Source of the DNA: a virus
Virus record (IMG/VR): IMGVR_UViG_3300023278_002502
Coordinates: 1-29,457 of that record
Reading direction: 5' to 3' (one strand)
Length of the DNA stretch: 29,457 bases
Positions 23,528 through 28,609 of this stretch are shown piece by piece. The notes beneath the pieces are model-generated. The model made no database searches. It was given only the letters and a program-made list of their open reading frames with translations, and was not told where the DNA came from. How positions within the stretch are numbered: the stretch's first letter is position 1; each line of letters starts with the position of its first letter. Position numbers and translations under genes: made by a program.

Positions 23528-23877
23528 TTTGCCCCTCGATCCCCGATAGCCCCGGGCTTGATTTAAGCTAGCCTAAATTGAAATATGCAAATTATGGCCT
23601 AAGTATGCGAAATTGCTAAAAAATTTCCGTTTGAAAAATTTCCAAAAAGGGTGCGGCTGAATCTAAATCCCCCTGGGTAGCTGAGAGTCCACAGGACCCG
23701 TCTTAGACTAATTACACAGCCTCGCCCCGGGGATCTACCCGCGGGCGCGTGGGTAATTTGTATAATATCCAGCAGATTGCCCCCCTCTGGTGTAGCTCGG
23801 TGTACTAGAACATTAGCACCCTTGCACAGATGCTGGCCCGCGCGGTAGGCTACGCGCTTGGGATCAGGGTGAGGCCA
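23528..23877. other. Intergenic region upstream of terminase genes
   Basis: No convincing gene is seen here. The part next to the terminase gene (23560-23650) is sharply richer in A+T than its surroundings and holds the candidate late promoter. It contains AAAAATTTCC twice, at 23619-23628 and 23634-23643, 15 bp apart. The remainder is mixed sequence. A 97-codon minus-strand open frame crosses it but lacks protein-like character. Confidence 0.6.
23591..23619 (-). promoter_or_regulatory. Candidate late promoter for the structural operon
   Basis: On the minus strand TTAGCA (23619-23614, 4 of 6 matches to the -35 consensus) and CATAAT (23596-23591, 5 of 6 matches to the -10 consensus) are separated by 17 bp. 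Immediately upstream are two A/T tracts that could act as an UP element. Transcription would begin near 23584, about 57 bases before the small terminase start. It is the only good candidate between the terminase and the gene before it. Confidence 0.5.
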
Positions 23878-23924: not shown

Positions 23925-24650
23925 TCACCGGGCAAAGATTCGATTCCTCTGGAGCTCCTGCTTGAGCTTTTTCTTGTAGATCCCAGCCATGCGTAGCTTC
24001 ACTCGAGCCACCGCCGGCATGAGCCAGGGGTTGGCCGGGATCGTAACATGCCGCTCGCTCATGTCCTGTACCAGCTTGACCTTGGGCTTGCGCTTGCCCC
24101 CGGTGACCCGGACGATACCCTTACGCTTGCCTAGGTCCACATAGGCGAAGCGCCGCTTGCCCCCCGCCCGGACCGCAGCCCCCACACGCTGGGCGTTGCG
24201 CCGCTTGCGGCTGCCGCTGGTCGGCACGCTCTGCAGCCGGATGCCCCGCACGCTGGCAATAGGCCTCGCCACCCGGGTGCGCGGTCTGGCCTGATCGCCC
24301 TCACCGCTGGCCCGGGGCGTGGTCCTGGGGATACCCACACGGCCCTCAGCCGTCCTCGAGCCGCCGAACTCCTGCACCTCCATGGCTGGGTTGATGGAGC
24401 CCGCCAGCGCCTCCTGGCGGCGCACAGCGGTCGCTGCGCTCGTCTTCTCCGTCCGCAGGGAGTTGAGCATCCACCTATTGCGCAGCGTCATCCCTTCGCG
24501 CATATTGCGCTCTGCCTCCTCGAGGGCGGCATCCGCTGCGCGATTGAGCGTGAACTGTGTGACTCTCGGGTAGGCCTTGGCAGCAAATCGATGCAAATCA
24601 CGCTCGAAGCGCTGCAAGTCCTTGTCGCCGTAGGTGATGAAGCCAGCCAT
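23925..24650 (-). CDS. Putative phage morphogenesis / tail completion protein
   Basis: A 241-residue, very basic protein starting at ATG 24650 (MAGFITYGDKDLQRFERDL). Its pattern of an N-terminal helix with TQFTLNRAADAALEEAERNM, then RNRWMLNSLRTEK, a GSINPAMEVQEFGGS strand, and a C-terminal NPWLMPAVARVKLRMAGIYKKKLKQEL helix resembles phage neck or tail completion proteins (HK97 gp10 or virion morphogenesis type). The middle, residues 105-190, is Arg/Gly-rich and probably flexible. It stands alone upstream of the terminase genes, next to the inverted duplication, rather than with the neck genes. Start choice has only weak ribosome-site support. Confidence 0.5.
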   Translation of the reverse strand: MAGFITYGDKDLQRFERDLHRFAAKAYPRVTQFTLNRAADAALEEAERNMREGMTLRNRWMLNSLRTEKTSAATAVRRQEALAGSINPAMEVQEFGGSRTAEGRVGIPRTTPRASGEGDQARPRTRVARPIASVRGIRLQSVPTSGSRKRRNAQRVGAAVRAGGKRRFAYVDLGKRKGIVRVTGGKRKPKVKLVQDMSERHVTIPANPWLMPAVARVKLRMAGIYKKKLKQELQRNRIFAR

Positions 24651-24690
24651 AATTAGCAGCCTAGCACACGCCCCGCGGGTTGCTGAATGC

Positions 24691-24742
24691 AAATGGCCAG
24701 TAAATGGCCAGTAAATGGCCAGTAAATGGCCAGTAAATGGCC
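24691..24742 (+). repeat. Left array: five 11-bp repeats (AAATGGCCAGT)
   Basis: Four complete units of AAATGGCCAGT begin at 24691, 24702, 24713 and 24724, followed by a fifth partial unit (AAATGGCC) at 24735. Each contains the palindrome TGGCCA and the 11-bp period places the cores on nearly the same face of the helix. The units are identical, so the array is recent or under strong selection. It is the reverse complement of the array at 24953-25007. Confidence 0.95.
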
Positions 24743-24828
24743 TCGTCTAACCCCGCGTCCCCATTCAACATCTTGAATAACAGACGCCCTCTAGGCCCGC
24801 ATTGCCCCCAAAACTCCCCCCACGGCCC

Positions 24829-24864
24829 TAGCACGTATTACATAATTATAGGTACTACGTGCTA
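24829..24864. repeat. Central 9-bp inverted repeat around CATAATTATA
   Basis: TAGCACGTA (24829-24837) and TACGTGCTA (24856-24864) form a perfect 9-bp inverted repeat around an 18-base A/T-rich core that includes CATAATTATA (24841-24850). It occupies the centre of the larger palindrome. The core is the most easily melted stretch of the region, and on the minus strand it contains TATAAT without a matching -35 box. Confidence 0.85.
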
Positions 24865-24952
24865 TCCCCACAGCCACAGTTACGCGCACACACTCGTGGC
24901 CTACCCTACCTCTATTATTCAAGAATAGTAGTAGTAACAAGGGGTTAAGTGC

Positions 24953-25007
24953 GGCCATTTACTGGCCATTTACTGGCCATTTGCTGGCCATTTGCTGGCC
25001 ATTTGCT
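24953..25007 (+). repeat. Right array: five 11-bp repeats (GGCCATTTACT / GGCCATTTGCT)
   Basis: Five complete 11-bp units begin at 24953, 24964, 24975, 24986 and 24997. The first two end in ACT and the last three in GCT. Together they are the reverse complement of the left array, whose outer flank (GCAAATGGCC) shows the same A/G variant. The array ends 46 bases before the -35 box of the rightward promoter. Confidence 0.95.
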
Positions 25008-25038
25008 CTCTCATAATTATAGAGCACCCCGGGGCGTC

Positions 25039-25048
25039 CATAATTATG
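25039..25048. promoter_or_regulatory. Perfect 10-bp palindrome CATAATTATG, operator candidate
   Basis: CATAATTATG is its own reverse complement and lies five bases upstream of the -35 box of the rightward promoter. Related CATAATTA sequences occur at 24648, 24841 and 25012. A site in this place could bind an activator or repressor; the product of the next gene is one candidate. Confidence 0.4.
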
Positions 25049-25053
25049 TGGGC

Positions 25054-25081
25054 TTGACAGCTGCCAAAAGTCCTATATGGT
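25054..25081 (+). promoter_or_regulatory. Rightward promoter of accessory operon
   Basis: A perfect -35 hexamer TTGACA (25054-25059) is followed after 16 bp by TATGGT (25076-25081, 4 of 6 matches). The start of transcription would fall near 25088, just before the ribosome site AGGGG (25091-25095) and ATG 25104, giving a very short leader. An alternative -10, TATATG at 25074, would leave only 14 bp of spacing. Confidence 0.55.
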
Positions 25082-25103: not shown

Positions 25104-25310
25104 ATGCGAAGGACCTATACGCACCGGATCGAAGAGACTCTATTGGACGACGTCAGGACCGCGGCCAGCTTGCGGCAGGAGCACATCGTCGATCTCATGG
25201 AGCGCGCCCTCGAGGCCGAGCTCGCCCGCCTCATCGAGACCAGCCCCGACAGCTACGGCGAGGCCATGCGGGCCGCGGGTGTCTTGCGCCGGGAGGTCCG
25301 GGACTCATGA
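25104..25310 (+). CDS. Ribbon-helix-helix DNA-binding protein
   Basis: A 68-residue protein with the Arc/CopG/ParR-type fold: a basic N-terminal strand (RRTYTHRIEE) followed by two helices (TLLDDVRTAASL and QEHIVDLMERALEAELARLIE). Such proteins bind as dimers, often cooperatively, to arrays of short palindromic sites. ATG 25104 is used because AGGGG lies eight bases upstream; ATG 25077 has none. It is the first gene right of the inverted duplication, so it probably regulates the adjacent promoters or acts as the adaptor of a partition system. The short C-terminal tail (SPDSYGEAMRAAGVLRREVRDS) is smaller than that of plasmid ParR proteins. Confidence 0.75.
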   Translation: MRRTYTHRIEETLLDDVRTAASLRQEHIVDLMERALEAELARLIETSPDSYGEAMRAAGVLRREVRDS

Positions 25311-25813
25311 GCGAGCCCACCCTCACCATTGCGCACGGGCCCATCTCGCTCACACTGACGCGTCTGGACGGCAAGCTACAGGTCGTCTCCACCAACGGCG
25401 CCCACAAGGTCACTGTGGAGCTCCGAGCCCATGACTCGACCTACGAGGCGATCCGCGAGTGGGCCACGCCCCCAGTCCCCCCGCTCAGCCTCGACGAGCA
25501 GGTTGCGCGGGAGGTGATGGGCTACGAGCGGTCCGTGCCCCGCGGTGACTACTGGCGCAGACCTGGACTAGTCAGCATCCGGGTCGCCGACTACACCCCC
25601 TCCACCGATTTCATCGCCGCGCAGCGGGCCCTCGAGCACGTGATGCCTGACGGCGCCGAGTGGAACGCCGCGCGCATGATCCACCACAATCATGACGCCT
25701 GCGGGTGGCGCGTGTGGCTCACTACGGGCCCGACTGGTGACGTTGACGCCCCCACCCTACCTGAGGCGCTCTGCCTCCTCGCACTGGAGATCGCACGCAA
25801 TGCGCATATGTGA
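25307..25813 (+). CDS. ABA-sandwich-domain protein 1
   Basis: A 168-residue protein, first of six tandem relatives. Residues 1-55 form a small beta-rich module (LTIAHGPISLTLTRLDGKLQVVSTNG). Residues 64-166 match the repeated domain: DEQVAREVMGY, then a variable strand region, VADYTPSTDFIAAQRALEHVM, a tryptophan-rich strand pair, and the closing helix APTLPEALCLLALEIAR. This arrangement resembles the Pfam Phage ABA sandwich domain, whose function is unknown. ATG 25307 overlaps the previous stop as ATGA, with GGGAGG ten bases upstream. Confidence 0.65.
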   Translation: MSEPTLTIAHGPISLTLTRLDGKLQVVSTNGAHKVTVELRAHDSTYEAIREWATPPVPPLSLDEQVAREVMGYERSVPRGDYWRRPGLVSIRVADYTPSTDFIAAQRALEHVMPDGAEWNAARMIHHNHDACGWRVWLTTGPTGDVDAPTLPEALCLLALEIARNAHM

Positions 25814-26258
25814 CGGATTGGAATTCATCGAGAAGAGCACGCATGTCCGCCTCGAGGCCGACGGACCCGGCCAAGTGGTAGGCCTTTTCGAGCCGGACGT
25901 GGAGGTTTTGCGTGACGCGCTCACCGCCTGGCTCGAGCGCCCCGCGCCCATCATTGACGAGCAAGTAGCGCGGGAGGTGATGGGGTGGACCGGCGCCATT
26001 GCTGGAGCGGATAGCCCGCCTGTTTGGCTGACCACTGAATTTCAGGAGCTCCCGCAAAACGCCTACACCCCCTCGACCGACGCGGGCCAAGCGCTCACCG
26101 CGTACCTGCACGCTCTGGACGGCGACACCCGGGTCCACGTGGTCTACGTGCACTCGTGTCGGGTCACGAGCAGGGACGGGACCATTGGCACCGGCGACAC
26201 TCTGGCTGAAGCGCTTTGCAACGCTGCGCTCCACGTGGTGCGCAACCGTGCCCGATAG
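25800..26258 (+). CDS. ABA-sandwich-domain protein 2
   Basis: A 152-residue protein starting at ATG 25800, within the last codons of the previous gene (14-base overlap). Residues 1-48 form an N-terminal module, FIEKSTHVRLEADGPGQVVGLFEPDVEVLRDALTAWL, almost shared with protein 4 of the set. Residues 53-150 carry the repeated domain (DEQVAREVMGW, AYTPSTDAGQALTAYLHAL, LAEALCNAALHVVRN). No catalytic signature is evident, and the conserved residues are mainly hydrophobic and aromatic, suggesting binding rather than catalysis. Confidence 0.62.
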   Translation: MRICDGLEFIEKSTHVRLEADGPGQVVGLFEPDVEVLRDALTAWLERPAPIIDEQVAREVMGWTGAIAGADSPPVWLTTEFQELPQNAYTPSTDAGQALTAYLHALDGDTRVHVVYVHSCRVTSRDGTIGTGDTLAEALCNAALHVVRNRAR

Positions 26259-26553
26259 CATCGACGAGCGCGTAGCAACGCGGGTCATGGGGTGGACGCG
26301 AGATAAGACGTCCTACTGGGTAAAGCCCGACGGTTTCCAGCCGGCGTCGCTCTACCTTCCGTCGCGCAACCCCACGCAAGCGATCGAGGCTATCGCCACG
26401 GCCACGCGCGGCAATTGGTCATACGAGACGCGCGGTGACGGAGTGCACCACGTCCGCGCCGGCACACACCGCCTCGAGATCGACGGAGGCGCCATGGCGG
26501 CCGCCTTGTGTCTCGCGGCGCTACACGTGAGAGGGGATACAAGTAATGGGTGA
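26248..26553 (+). CDS. ABA-sandwich-domain protein 3 (single domain)
   Basis: About 101 residues from GTG 26248, which overlaps the stop of the previous gene by 11 bases; the homology begins at once with DSIDERVATRVMGW, so no N-terminal module is present. The rest follows the family pattern (LYLPSRNPTQAIEAIATA, then AMAAALCLAALHVRG). A start further upstream would add residues with no similarity to relatives. The ribosome site is weak, so translation probably relies on coupling. Confidence 0.58.
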   Translation: MPDSIDERVATRVMGWTRDKTSYWVKPDGFQPASLYLPSRNPTQAIEAIATATRGNWSYETRGDGVHHVRAGTHRLEIDGGAMAAALCLAALHVRGDTSNG

Positions 26554-26968
26554 GCTATACGGCACCGCCGAAATGCGTGTGCGCAGCGCAGATACGCACC
26601 TGACTTTCGACACCGACGGCCATGGTGTCGCAGTACTCAACCGCGCCGAAACCGAAGCGCTCCGCGACGCGCTCACCGCGTGGCTCGCCGGCCCCACCGA
26701 CGAGCAGGTTGCGCGGGAGGTTATGGGGTGGGCGCCGGAGCGCGTAGTCAACTACACCCCCACAACCAACGACACGCAAGCGCGTGAAGCGCTGGAGCGC
26801 GTCACGGGGTCGGGCGGGGAGTGGGGTTTGCACGCTCATCCCGCAGGGGGTTACTACGCGGCGTACGGTGGCCCGCCGGCCAGCGGGGAAACCGCGACAG
26901 CCACACAGCCAACCGCAGCGCTCGCCATGTGCGTCGCAGCCCTCGAGATCGCAAGGAGTAGGTCATGA
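26546..26968 (+). CDS. ABA-sandwich-domain protein 4
   Basis: A 140-residue protein at ATG 26546, with GAGGGG nine bases upstream and an eight-base overlap with the gene before. Residues 5-47 are the N-terminal module, including EALRDALTAWL as in protein 2. Residues 50-138 are the repeated domain (DEQVAREVMGW, NYTPTTNDTQAREALERV, TAALAMCVAALEIARS). The phrase NDTQAREAL recurs in the second domain of protein 5 with nearly identical DNA. Confidence 0.62.
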   Translation: MGELYGTAEMRVRSADTHLTFDTDGHGVAVLNRAETEALRDALTAWLAGPTDEQVAREVMGWAPERVVNYTPTTNDTQAREALERVTGSGGEWGLHAHPAGGYYAAYGGPPASGETATATQPTAALAMCVAALEIARSRS

Positions 26969-27519
26969 CCAACGAACAGGTCGGGCGCGACGTGATGGGG
27001 CATCAGCATCGTCTCGCCGGCTACACCCCCCTCACTGACACGGATCAAGCCATAGAGGCGCTCGAGCACGTGCTGCCTGCCGGCATAGCATGGAATCTAA
27101 CCCGGCTACCTGAGGGTGGGTATAGGTGCCTCACCCCCGACACGGCCCACGGCACCACCCCCGCCGAGGCCATCTGCGCCGCAGCGCTCGCGCTGACCGA
27201 GCCGACCGACGAGCAGCTCAACGCCGCCGTGGCCCTCGAGGTATGGGGGTGGGCGCGGACCGTGCCCCGTGGCACCGCTTGGGTTGTAGACAGCTCCTTA
27301 ACCTGTATCCGGGTCGCCGACTACACCCCCGCCACCAACGACACGCAAGCGCGTGAGGCCCTCGACTACGCGACACGAGACTACGCCAGCCCCCGCTGGC
27401 AGCTCGCCCGTACCGGCCTCGAGGAGTACAGTGTGAGCCCGCGCAGCGGTGGCGGTGCTGTGGCCAACACCGCAGCCCGCGCCATGACCCTGGCGGCGCT
27501 CGAAGTGGCGCGCCGGTAA
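26965..27519 (+). CDS. ABA-sandwich-domain protein 5 (two domains in tandem)
   Basis: A 184-residue protein with two copies of the domain. The first, residues 2-77, starts with NEQVGRDVMGH and includes GYTPLTDTDQAIEALEHVLP; the second, about 80-183, starts TDEQLNAAVALEVWGW and includes IRVADYTPATNDTQAREALDYA. No N-terminal module is present. ATG 26965 overlaps the previous stop as ATGA and has AAGGAG upstream. This gene looks like a fusion of two ancestral single-domain genes. Confidence 0.62.
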   Translation: MTNEQVGRDVMGHQHRLAGYTPLTDTDQAIEALEHVLPAGIAWNLTRLPEGGYRCLTPDTAHGTTPAEAICAAALALTEPTDEQLNAAVALEVWGWARTVPRGTAWVVDSSLTCIRVADYTPATNDTQAREALDYATRDYASPRWQLARTGLEEYSVSPRSGGGAVANTAARAMTLAALEVARR

Positions 27520-27842: not shown

Positions 27843-28320
27843 CCACCTGCACGATATGCCGCCTGCCGTAAAGGGGGCGCTAGATCGGTTCAATCGCAAG
27901 TTAGCTGAGGCGAAGGTCAAAAAAGACATCATGCTATGCCGAGGCGATTGTCTCGAAGTCATGAAACAGCTAGAGCCAGCTTCGGTAGACATGGTTTTAA
28001 CTGATCCACCTTACGGCACAACCGCCTGCAAATGGGACTCAATTATACCACTGGAGCCGATGTGGGAGCAGCTCAAACGCATCACCAAACCCAACGCCGC
28101 CATTGTGTTGATGGCTGCGCAGCCTTTCACGAGCGCTCTTGTGATGAGCAACACTAAGATGTTTAAGTATTGCTGGGTGTGGAACAAGAAGAAGGGCGGC
28201 AACATCCAAGTTCTAAAGTGGCAACCCTGTCAAGTATTACCCTCTAAAAACGCCACAGAAAGAGCGCACAGGAAAAACCTACTCAGCCGGCGAAGCTGGT
28301 GGGATAAAGCATTATGGTGA
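27829..28320 (+). CDS. DNA methyltransferase (DPPY type), N-terminal part of a broken gene
   Basis: A 163-residue fragment of an amino-methylating (N6-adenine or N4-cytosine) DNA methyltransferase. The catalytic motif DPPYG is at residues 59-63 after VDMVLT, followed by TKPNAAIVLMAAQPFTSALV and FKYCWVWNKKKGGNIQVLKWQP. After about 28227 the sequence leaves the family pattern and reads unrelated residues to a stop at 28320. GTG 27829 is chosen for its GAGG at six bases; ATG 27856 is possible. Base composition is clearly lower in G+C than in the genes around it, suggesting separate acquisition. Confidence 0.7.
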   Translation: MTRADHLHDMPPAVKGALDRFNRKLAEAKVKKDIMLCRGDCLEVMKQLEPASVDMVLTDPPYGTTACKWDSIIPLEPMWEQLKRITKPNAAIVLMAAQPFTSALVMSNTKMFKYCWVWNKKKGGNIQVLKWQPCQVLPSKNATERAHRKNLLSRRSWWDKALW

Positions 28321-28321
28321 T

Positions 28322-28609
28322 TTGCGAAGTTACAAAGACAAACATCCTAAGAGTATCCTTGAAATCAGTAACGCTAATCAACGCGGTAAGGTACACCCAA
28401 CCCAAAAACCCGTTGCACTGATGGAGTACCTCATCAAGACCTACACCAACGAGAAAGAAGTTGTGCTCGACTTCACAATGGGCAGCGGCACAACCGGAGT
28501 CGCATGCAAGAACACCGGGCGCAAGTTCATAGGTATTGAGCTCGACGAAACGTATTTTGGCATCGCGCAAAATCGAATAAACGGTCAGTCCGGAAAGATG
28601 GCCCCATGA
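28322..28609 (+). CDS. DNA methyltransferase, C-terminal part of a broken gene
   Basis: The continuation of the methyltransferase in another frame. It contains KSILEISNANQRGKVHPTQKPVALMEYLIKTYTNEKEVVLDFTMGSGTTGVACKNTGRKFIGIELDETYF, including the AdoMet-binding motif DFTMGSGTTG at residues 50-59 from TTG 28322. Motif order (catalytic first, AdoMet-binding last) is that of the beta class. The frame is open from 28217 and family-like residues (KYYPLKTPQKERTGKTYSAG) already begin near 28232, before any usual start codon, so this is more likely the tail of a damaged gene than an independent one. It may still be expressed by reinitiation at TTG 28322. Confidence 0.65.
   Translation: MRSYKDKHPKSILEISNANQRGKVHPTQKPVALMEYLIKTYTNEKEVVLDFTMGSGTTGVACKNTGRKFIGIELDETYFGIAQNRINGQSGKMAP

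Follow-up and report, generated by a model that had tools for sequence, protein, structure and literature searches.

What could a tailed phage gain from a near-mirror-image stretch of about 415 bases, set in non-coding DNA and flanked in each half by a short repeat in five identical copies? The question is raised by an IMG/VR record, and the window analysed here is that complete record of 29,457 bases. It is linear and represents part of a tailed phage genome, roughly a third of the typical 42-49 kb being absent. An earlier, sequence-only reading of the locus had proposed a partition site, a replication origin or a packaging site, kept by selection in blocks. The region proved to be real, well above chance and unusual in form, and the place in which it sits is repeat-prone throughout a group of phages.

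Anatomy of the mirrored region

On one side of the region is the neck/terminase operon and on the other a 68-codon gene that is divergent from it, with which the plus-strand genes to the right begin. The structural genes are on the minus strand and end on the right with the large terminase (GpA type), the small terminase, assigned from a weak phrog_57 match, and the neck gene. The right flank holds small genes and a methylase, at the place where the initiator gene of the relatives might be; within the 29.5 kb of this incomplete genome no primase was found. Among the right-flank genes, at least three small proteins encoded at 25307-27519 gave weak matches to Phage_ABA_S (PF18066) and are apparently duplicates, and the DNA methylase is apparently split into two adjacent frames (27859-28317 and 28322-28606), possibly by a frameshift or a sequencing error. 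The features of the window are as follows.

23653-23697, minus strand: cos-like packaging end (GGTCCTGTGG...GATTTAGATTCAGCCG), on the far side of the neck gene from the palindrome
23925-24650, minus strand: gene of the neck or minor tail protein (phrog_4688), the synteny anchor with relatives
24643-24684, plus strand: left outer mirrored segment (CATAATTA, ACGCCCCG, GGGTTGCT), overlapping the start of the neck gene and the putative -10
24658-24668, minus strand: TGTGCTAGGCT, which may be an extended -10 for the neck operon; relatives have the comparable TGCTAGACT / TGTGGTATTAT
24691-24742, plus strand: left array, five AAATGGCC units with an 11-bp period (AAATGGCCAGT)
24748-24797, plus strand: left inner mirrored blocks, TAACCCC (24748-24754), CTTGAATAA (24772-24780) and TAGGCC (24792-24797)
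24829-24864, no strand: central imperfect palindrome TAGCACGTATTACATAATTATAGGTACTACGTGCTA, 36 bp, 16-nt arms, 88%
24842-24849, no strand: ATAATTAT, one of three copies in the window (the others at 25013-25020 and 25040-25047; expected 0.03)
24898-24947, minus strand: right inner mirrored blocks, GGCCTA (24898-24903), TTATTCAAG (24915-24923) and GGGGTTA (24941-24947)
24911-24940, no strand: the 30-bp stretch with the highest AT content in the region (77%, within the top 0.04% of the window); a candidate site of unwinding
24953-25004, minus strand: right array, five inverted AAATGGCC units with an 11-bp period (GGCCATTTRCT on the plus strand)
25023-25051, minus strand: right outer mirrored segment, counterpart of 24643-24684
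25054-25081, plus strand: sigma-70-like promoter TTGACA-16-TATGGT before the 68-codon gene, just beyond the mirror
25104-25310, plus strand: gene of the 68-residue protein, divergent from the neck operon, with no detectable relatives

When the 29.5 kb were scanned for AAATGGCC, all 10 copies were found inside the two arrays, at this one non-coding locus: five on the plus strand (starts at 24691, 24702, 24713, 24724 and 24735) and five on the minus strand (starts at 24953, 24964, 24975, 24986 and 24997). The chance expectation is 0.84 copies, and none of the shuffles reached 10. The two arrays are inverted and 210 bp apart, with offsets of -156.5 to -105.5 and +105.5 to +156.5 from a common axis at 24847.5; the two equidistant sets of five 11-bp repeats that had been reported from the sequence alone are confirmed. 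Complementarity between the arrays is 98% over the first 43 bases counted from 24689, and over some 54 positions the arrays differ in two or three, whereas the neighbouring DNA has diverged. The arrays and boxes have therefore been kept, either by selection or by copying between the arms.

Further mirrored elements lie inside and outside the arrays. Four inner pairs had been proposed, and three of them (TAACCCC, CTTGAATAA and TAGGCC) occupy exact mirror positions; the fourth, TAGCACGTA at 24829-24837 and 24856-24864, is part of the 36-bp central palindrome and has its own axis at 24846.5, 1 bp off. The palindrome had been given as 24691-25007, which captured a real mirror and understated its extent, since CATAATTA, ACGCCCCG and GGG-TGCT are mirrored outside the arrays as well and carry it to about 24643-25051. 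The inner blocks are mirrored even when tested alone, without the arrays (p ~1/2000), and the same is true of the outer blocks (p ~3/2000).

The mirror as a whole stands far outside its controls. In the region, 98 bases fall within mirrored 6-mers; the highest value was 47 among 220 other 500-bp windows from this record and 39 among 200 dinucleotide shuffles. The gapped alignment of the two arms scored 73, where 661 control windows gave a 99th percentile of 37 and a maximum of 52. Folded as a single strand, the 416-nt stretch reached -114.9 kcal/mol, compared with -52.3 +/- 4.0 for its shuffles (z = -15.8), and an Rfam search of the region gave no match.

The same place in related phages

No close relatives of the DNA were found. 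For the neck protein there were 13 homologues among named phages, which include VP16T/C, SFCi1, SppYZU01, CKB-S1, OsaM_PD0307, PY6, Scuro and AeroV_348, and searches with the neck alignment brought in 38 IMG/VR loci and afterwards 68, some of them in both sets. The hosts of the relatives include Vibrio, Shewanella, Oceanospirillum, Aeromonas, Acinetobacter and Pseudoalteromonas. Across about 80 phages and contigs with the neck gene, a repeat-prone non-coding region occupies the equivalent spot; where the record extends past the 5' end of the neck gene, the region follows immediately and is typically several hundred bases long, repeat-prone and mostly non-coding. Different phages use different repeat words: GTGCACC in VP16T and SFCi1, GTTGTGCCCC in 1.009.O and CKB-S1, GTAGT in OsaM, TACCCC in three further relatives (L057, L066 and L068) and TACCACT in another (L169), and the upstream region of L070 has ten GCGGCTACAA units.

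In 18 of 60 relatives, where 0.6 would be expected, tandem arrays of 9-13 bp scored higher than the 99th percentile of the controls. Mirror scores were above the 95th percentile in 12 of the 60 (expected 3) and above the 99th in five (expected 0.6), and in the first set of relatives 11 of 29 loci scored above all of their own control windows. Two relatives show what a mirrored region looks like: ATACCCCGCAT...GTACGGGGTG.CTTGAAACCCCCTA is present in each arm in L068, and AAGTCATTGATTT in each arm in L057. Most of the relatives' regions are not significantly palindromic, some are not above control at all, and the central palindrome was not seen in relatives when these were judged by eye. The window is the extreme case, and the mirror is a tendency of the phage group, not a rule. 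The absence of mirrored blocks from related phages had been named among the outcomes that would speak against a function, and it did not occur: a minority are significantly mirrored. With repeat-rich and in some cases mirrored DNA at the equivalent position of relatives, the proposal of a functional nucleoprotein site kept in blocks is also supported.

Another repeat, GTAGCGGC, is found in contigs L061-L070, L132, L143 and L152 as tandem arrays of 10-11 bp period, both upstream of the neck region and a second time close to the contig ends; it seems to be a dispersed non-coding repeat of these phages.

Searches for the array itself led elsewhere. An exact array search of IMG/VR returned 26 matches, about the chance level, none of them with an AGT/AGC spacer. 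In bacterial genomes, the exact 24-mer was found in three contigs, which represent two homologous Spirochaetales loci and one proteobacterial locus, all of them single unmirrored sites. These were judged to be chance members of a common class of 11-bp tandem repeats, with an exact-match count that is still above the naive random expectation. In the Spirochaetales contigs (L102 1611-1860 and L103 734-895) the 11-bp unit of the window (CAAATGGCCAG) occurs in several arrays directly behind an AlbA_2-like gene, at one locus per genome.

Neighbouring primases and a coordinated change of repeat word

In the 51 loci with a primase match, the distance from the region to this primase-polymerase/helicase gene is no more than about 6 kb. 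Two fixed layouts were found. In 23 of the 51, a Prim-Pol/D5-type primase is divergent and usually stands behind a small HTH_17-like gene; in the other layout (28 of 51) an NrS-1-type primase is codirectional, with other genes between. The domains detected in these primases were Prim-Pol, PriCT_2, D5_N/VapE, a weak Pox_D5, the NrS-1 HBD and DUF5906. The gene orf63T of VP16T (L049 3012-5387), which is labelled a putative integrase, matches Prim-Pol/PriCT_2/VapE profiles and is a primase-helicase; the genes with the same label in L051 and L053 are homologues of orf63T by tblastn and are read likewise, the profiles having been run for orf63T.

AT-rich DNA accompanies the repeats. Among 20 relatives, the 50-bp segment of the region with the most AT ranks in most cases in the top 0.2% of the locus, L057 and L068 reaching the top 4% only; these segments lie mostly 130-180 bp upstream of the neck start. 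The GC skew, which the sequence-only reading had put forward as a check, gave a divided answer: a minimum lies near the region in SppYZU01, OsaM, CKB-S1 and 97.13, but VP16T and SFCi1 have no turn there, and the measure, which shows no consistent turn at the region, is confounded by gene direction. The window itself has the clustered short repeats in one non-coding locus and the AT-rich segment that are looked for in an origin, and the AT-rich segments of relatives are comparable to its own or stronger. As it contains no primase, its link to an initiator is one of synteny only.

An indication of how the repeats are used came from a pair of Vibrio phages, 367.14 (PP179307.1, L045) and 97.13 (PP179306.1, L052). 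At some 300 bp from the neck gene, on its upstream side, one phage has GTTGT in all eight copies of the repeat, in both orientations, and the other has GTAGT. Otherwise the two are nearly identical in the core of the region, with differences at only 16 of 240 other sites. It is implausible that eight copies would be switched as a set by independent substitution, and this points to a single sequence-reading protein that would use all of them in this pair. The primases of the two phages are about 95% identical, with amino-acid changes clustered around residues 55-85 and within the final 85, and the divergent small gene that neighbours the region has been replaced between them. Both were considered as determinants of the repeat word across four phages, with L046 and L069 added, and both were set aside: the type of the small gene did not correlate with the word, and no single residue of the primase C-terminus tracks it.

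A proposed origin and its alternatives

We propose for the region an iteron-type replication origin, a dyad of two opposed arrays that probably doubles as promoter control, and we would put the probability of this reading at about 0.5; a replication origin is also the best fit among the functions that had been offered before. In such an origin, a sequence-specific initiator would form a complex with both of the opposed 11-bp arrays and with the mirrored inner boxes, the AT-richer DNA between the arrays would open, one helicase would be loaded per arm, and forks would leave both ways. The initiator would probably be the phage primase-polymerase/helicase or a small accessory DNA-binding protein. 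Its occupancy would probably also control the neck/late promoter and the promoter of the 68-codon gene, and a dual role is likely, since the arrays are placed to affect both flanking promoters.

The main rival takes this last point as the whole function. A repressor or activator filament on the 11-bp arrays, with the DNA looped from one array to the other, would switch between the late (neck/structural) operon and the divergent one and have no role in replication. The flanking genes are indeed divergent, a good sigma-70-like promoter stands at 25054-25081, the left array is directly upstream of the putative -10 at 24658-24668, and motif copies crowd the neck promoter in relatives too. However, the relatives with the NrS-1-type layout have a codirectional gene and a terminator on the other flank and still have the repeats, which speaks against a purely divergent-promoter operator; an operator would also leave the primase proximity in 51 loci and the AT-rich segment unexplained. 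We hold this account to be doubtful, though it deserves to be kept in view. A site of recombination, attP-like or for dimer resolution, is considerably less probable. It would make the 36-bp central palindrome the crossover core and the arrays the arm-type sites, and the geometry does recall a lambda-type attP, in which a central core with inverted half-sites is accompanied by outlying arm repeats, here about 100 bp off on each side. The record, itself a fragment, contains neither a tyrosine (PF00589) nor a serine (PF00239) recombinase, though, the relatives lack the central palindrome by eye, and orf63T of VP16T, labelled an "integrase", is identified by Pfam as a primase-helicase. A miniature transposable element that was inserted here, or an old inverted duplication that now has no function, seems improbable to much the same degree. 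The overall inverted-repeat form would suit either, the collinear mirrored blocks with small gaps suggest one inverted duplication, and the 11-bp unit forms a tandem array in three bacterial contigs; in those contigs, however, there is one site per genome, without an inverted partner. A search of 50,697 phage records found no copy, and none of IMG/VR recovered an exact array; the arrays of the two arms are near-identical while their flanks have diverged, which indicates constraint, and relatives carry functional-looking repeats of unrelated words at the equivalent site.

The comparison from which the sequence-only reading had started, that with the centromere parC of plasmid R1, suggested a site of partition to which a small ribbon-helix-helix protein would bind. 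In parC, direct repeats flank a short promoter beside parM/parR. Two clusters of five 11-bp repeats are indeed common to parC and the window, and the likeness ends there: the arrays of the window are inverted and 210 bp apart, and no partition genes are present in the sequenced part. The adjacent 68-residue protein fits the ribbon-helix-helix pattern when this is laid on by eye, but it gave no ribbon-helix-helix match and no match in Pfam, PHROG, NCBIfam or PDB, a search for its relatives found none, and its single-sequence AlphaFold2 model is an all-helical hairpin, which is uninformative for an obligate dimer. No ParA-type ATPase was found in the record, which is a fragment, and the annotated relatives report no partition gene; the search for ParM carries no weight, since nothing was detected in its control genomes. 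Partition is a very unlikely function. Packaging, the last of the functions first proposed, is hardly credible for this site, despite its neighbourhood of packaging genes. In 44 loci the record ends near AGGTACTG or AGGTTCTT, in many continuing to ...GTTTTGATTC, and this conserved cos sequence lies across the neck gene from the palindrome, between neck and small terminase, with its counterpart in the window at 23653-23697. The cos-like end AGGTACTG...GTTTTGATTC is common to dozens of uncultured phage contigs (L061-L067, L118-L169).

The origin that we favour can be set beside several known replication systems. In the satellite phage P4, the repeats of ori and crr are bound by the alpha protein, a primase-helicase initiator, through its C-terminal domain. 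Short repeated sites read by a primase-helicase initiator would be common to P4 and the proposed origin; the P4 repeats do not form one large mirror, however, and its ori and crr are kilobases apart, whereas the window has a single mirror. The D5-type Rep helicases of SaPIs and SCCmec bind short iterons next to the gene that encodes them, seemingly in the form of two hexamers (PMC7581432, citing Ubeda 2007). Short repeats in non-coding DNA near a D5-class primase/helicase gene are a trait which these elements share with the window group, and their repeats are read by one specific protein, as we propose for the group. The window differs in having two opposed five-copy arrays, spaced by 210 bp inside an imperfect palindrome of 415 bp; its initiator gene lies outside the sequenced part, and its sites are putative. 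For the phage NrS-1, two opposed 8-nt polymerase sites have been proposed as the origin (PMC7102993). A primase related to one with the NrS-1-type helix-bundle domain is found near the region in 28 relatives of the window, but NrS-1 has two single sites where the window has arrays (PMC7102993, PMC8718748).

Iteron origins are a known kind, and it is the two-array mirror arrangement that would be new. We would go further only tentatively, to an origin of previously undescribed design, in which opposed five-unit, helically phased iteron filaments may be combined with mirrored inner boxes and a central hairpin-forming palindrome. The group would then keep the place and layout of the origin while the repeat word varies freely, giving each phage, possibly, a private origin code.

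We found no mapped origin for this primase-polymerase phage group in the literature. The region is a pointer to the origin used by a large set of tailed phages, most of them uncultured, that rely on primase-polymerases, and the natural pair of 367.14 and 97.13 offers a direct way of identifying the reader of the repeats and of following how origin specificity evolves.
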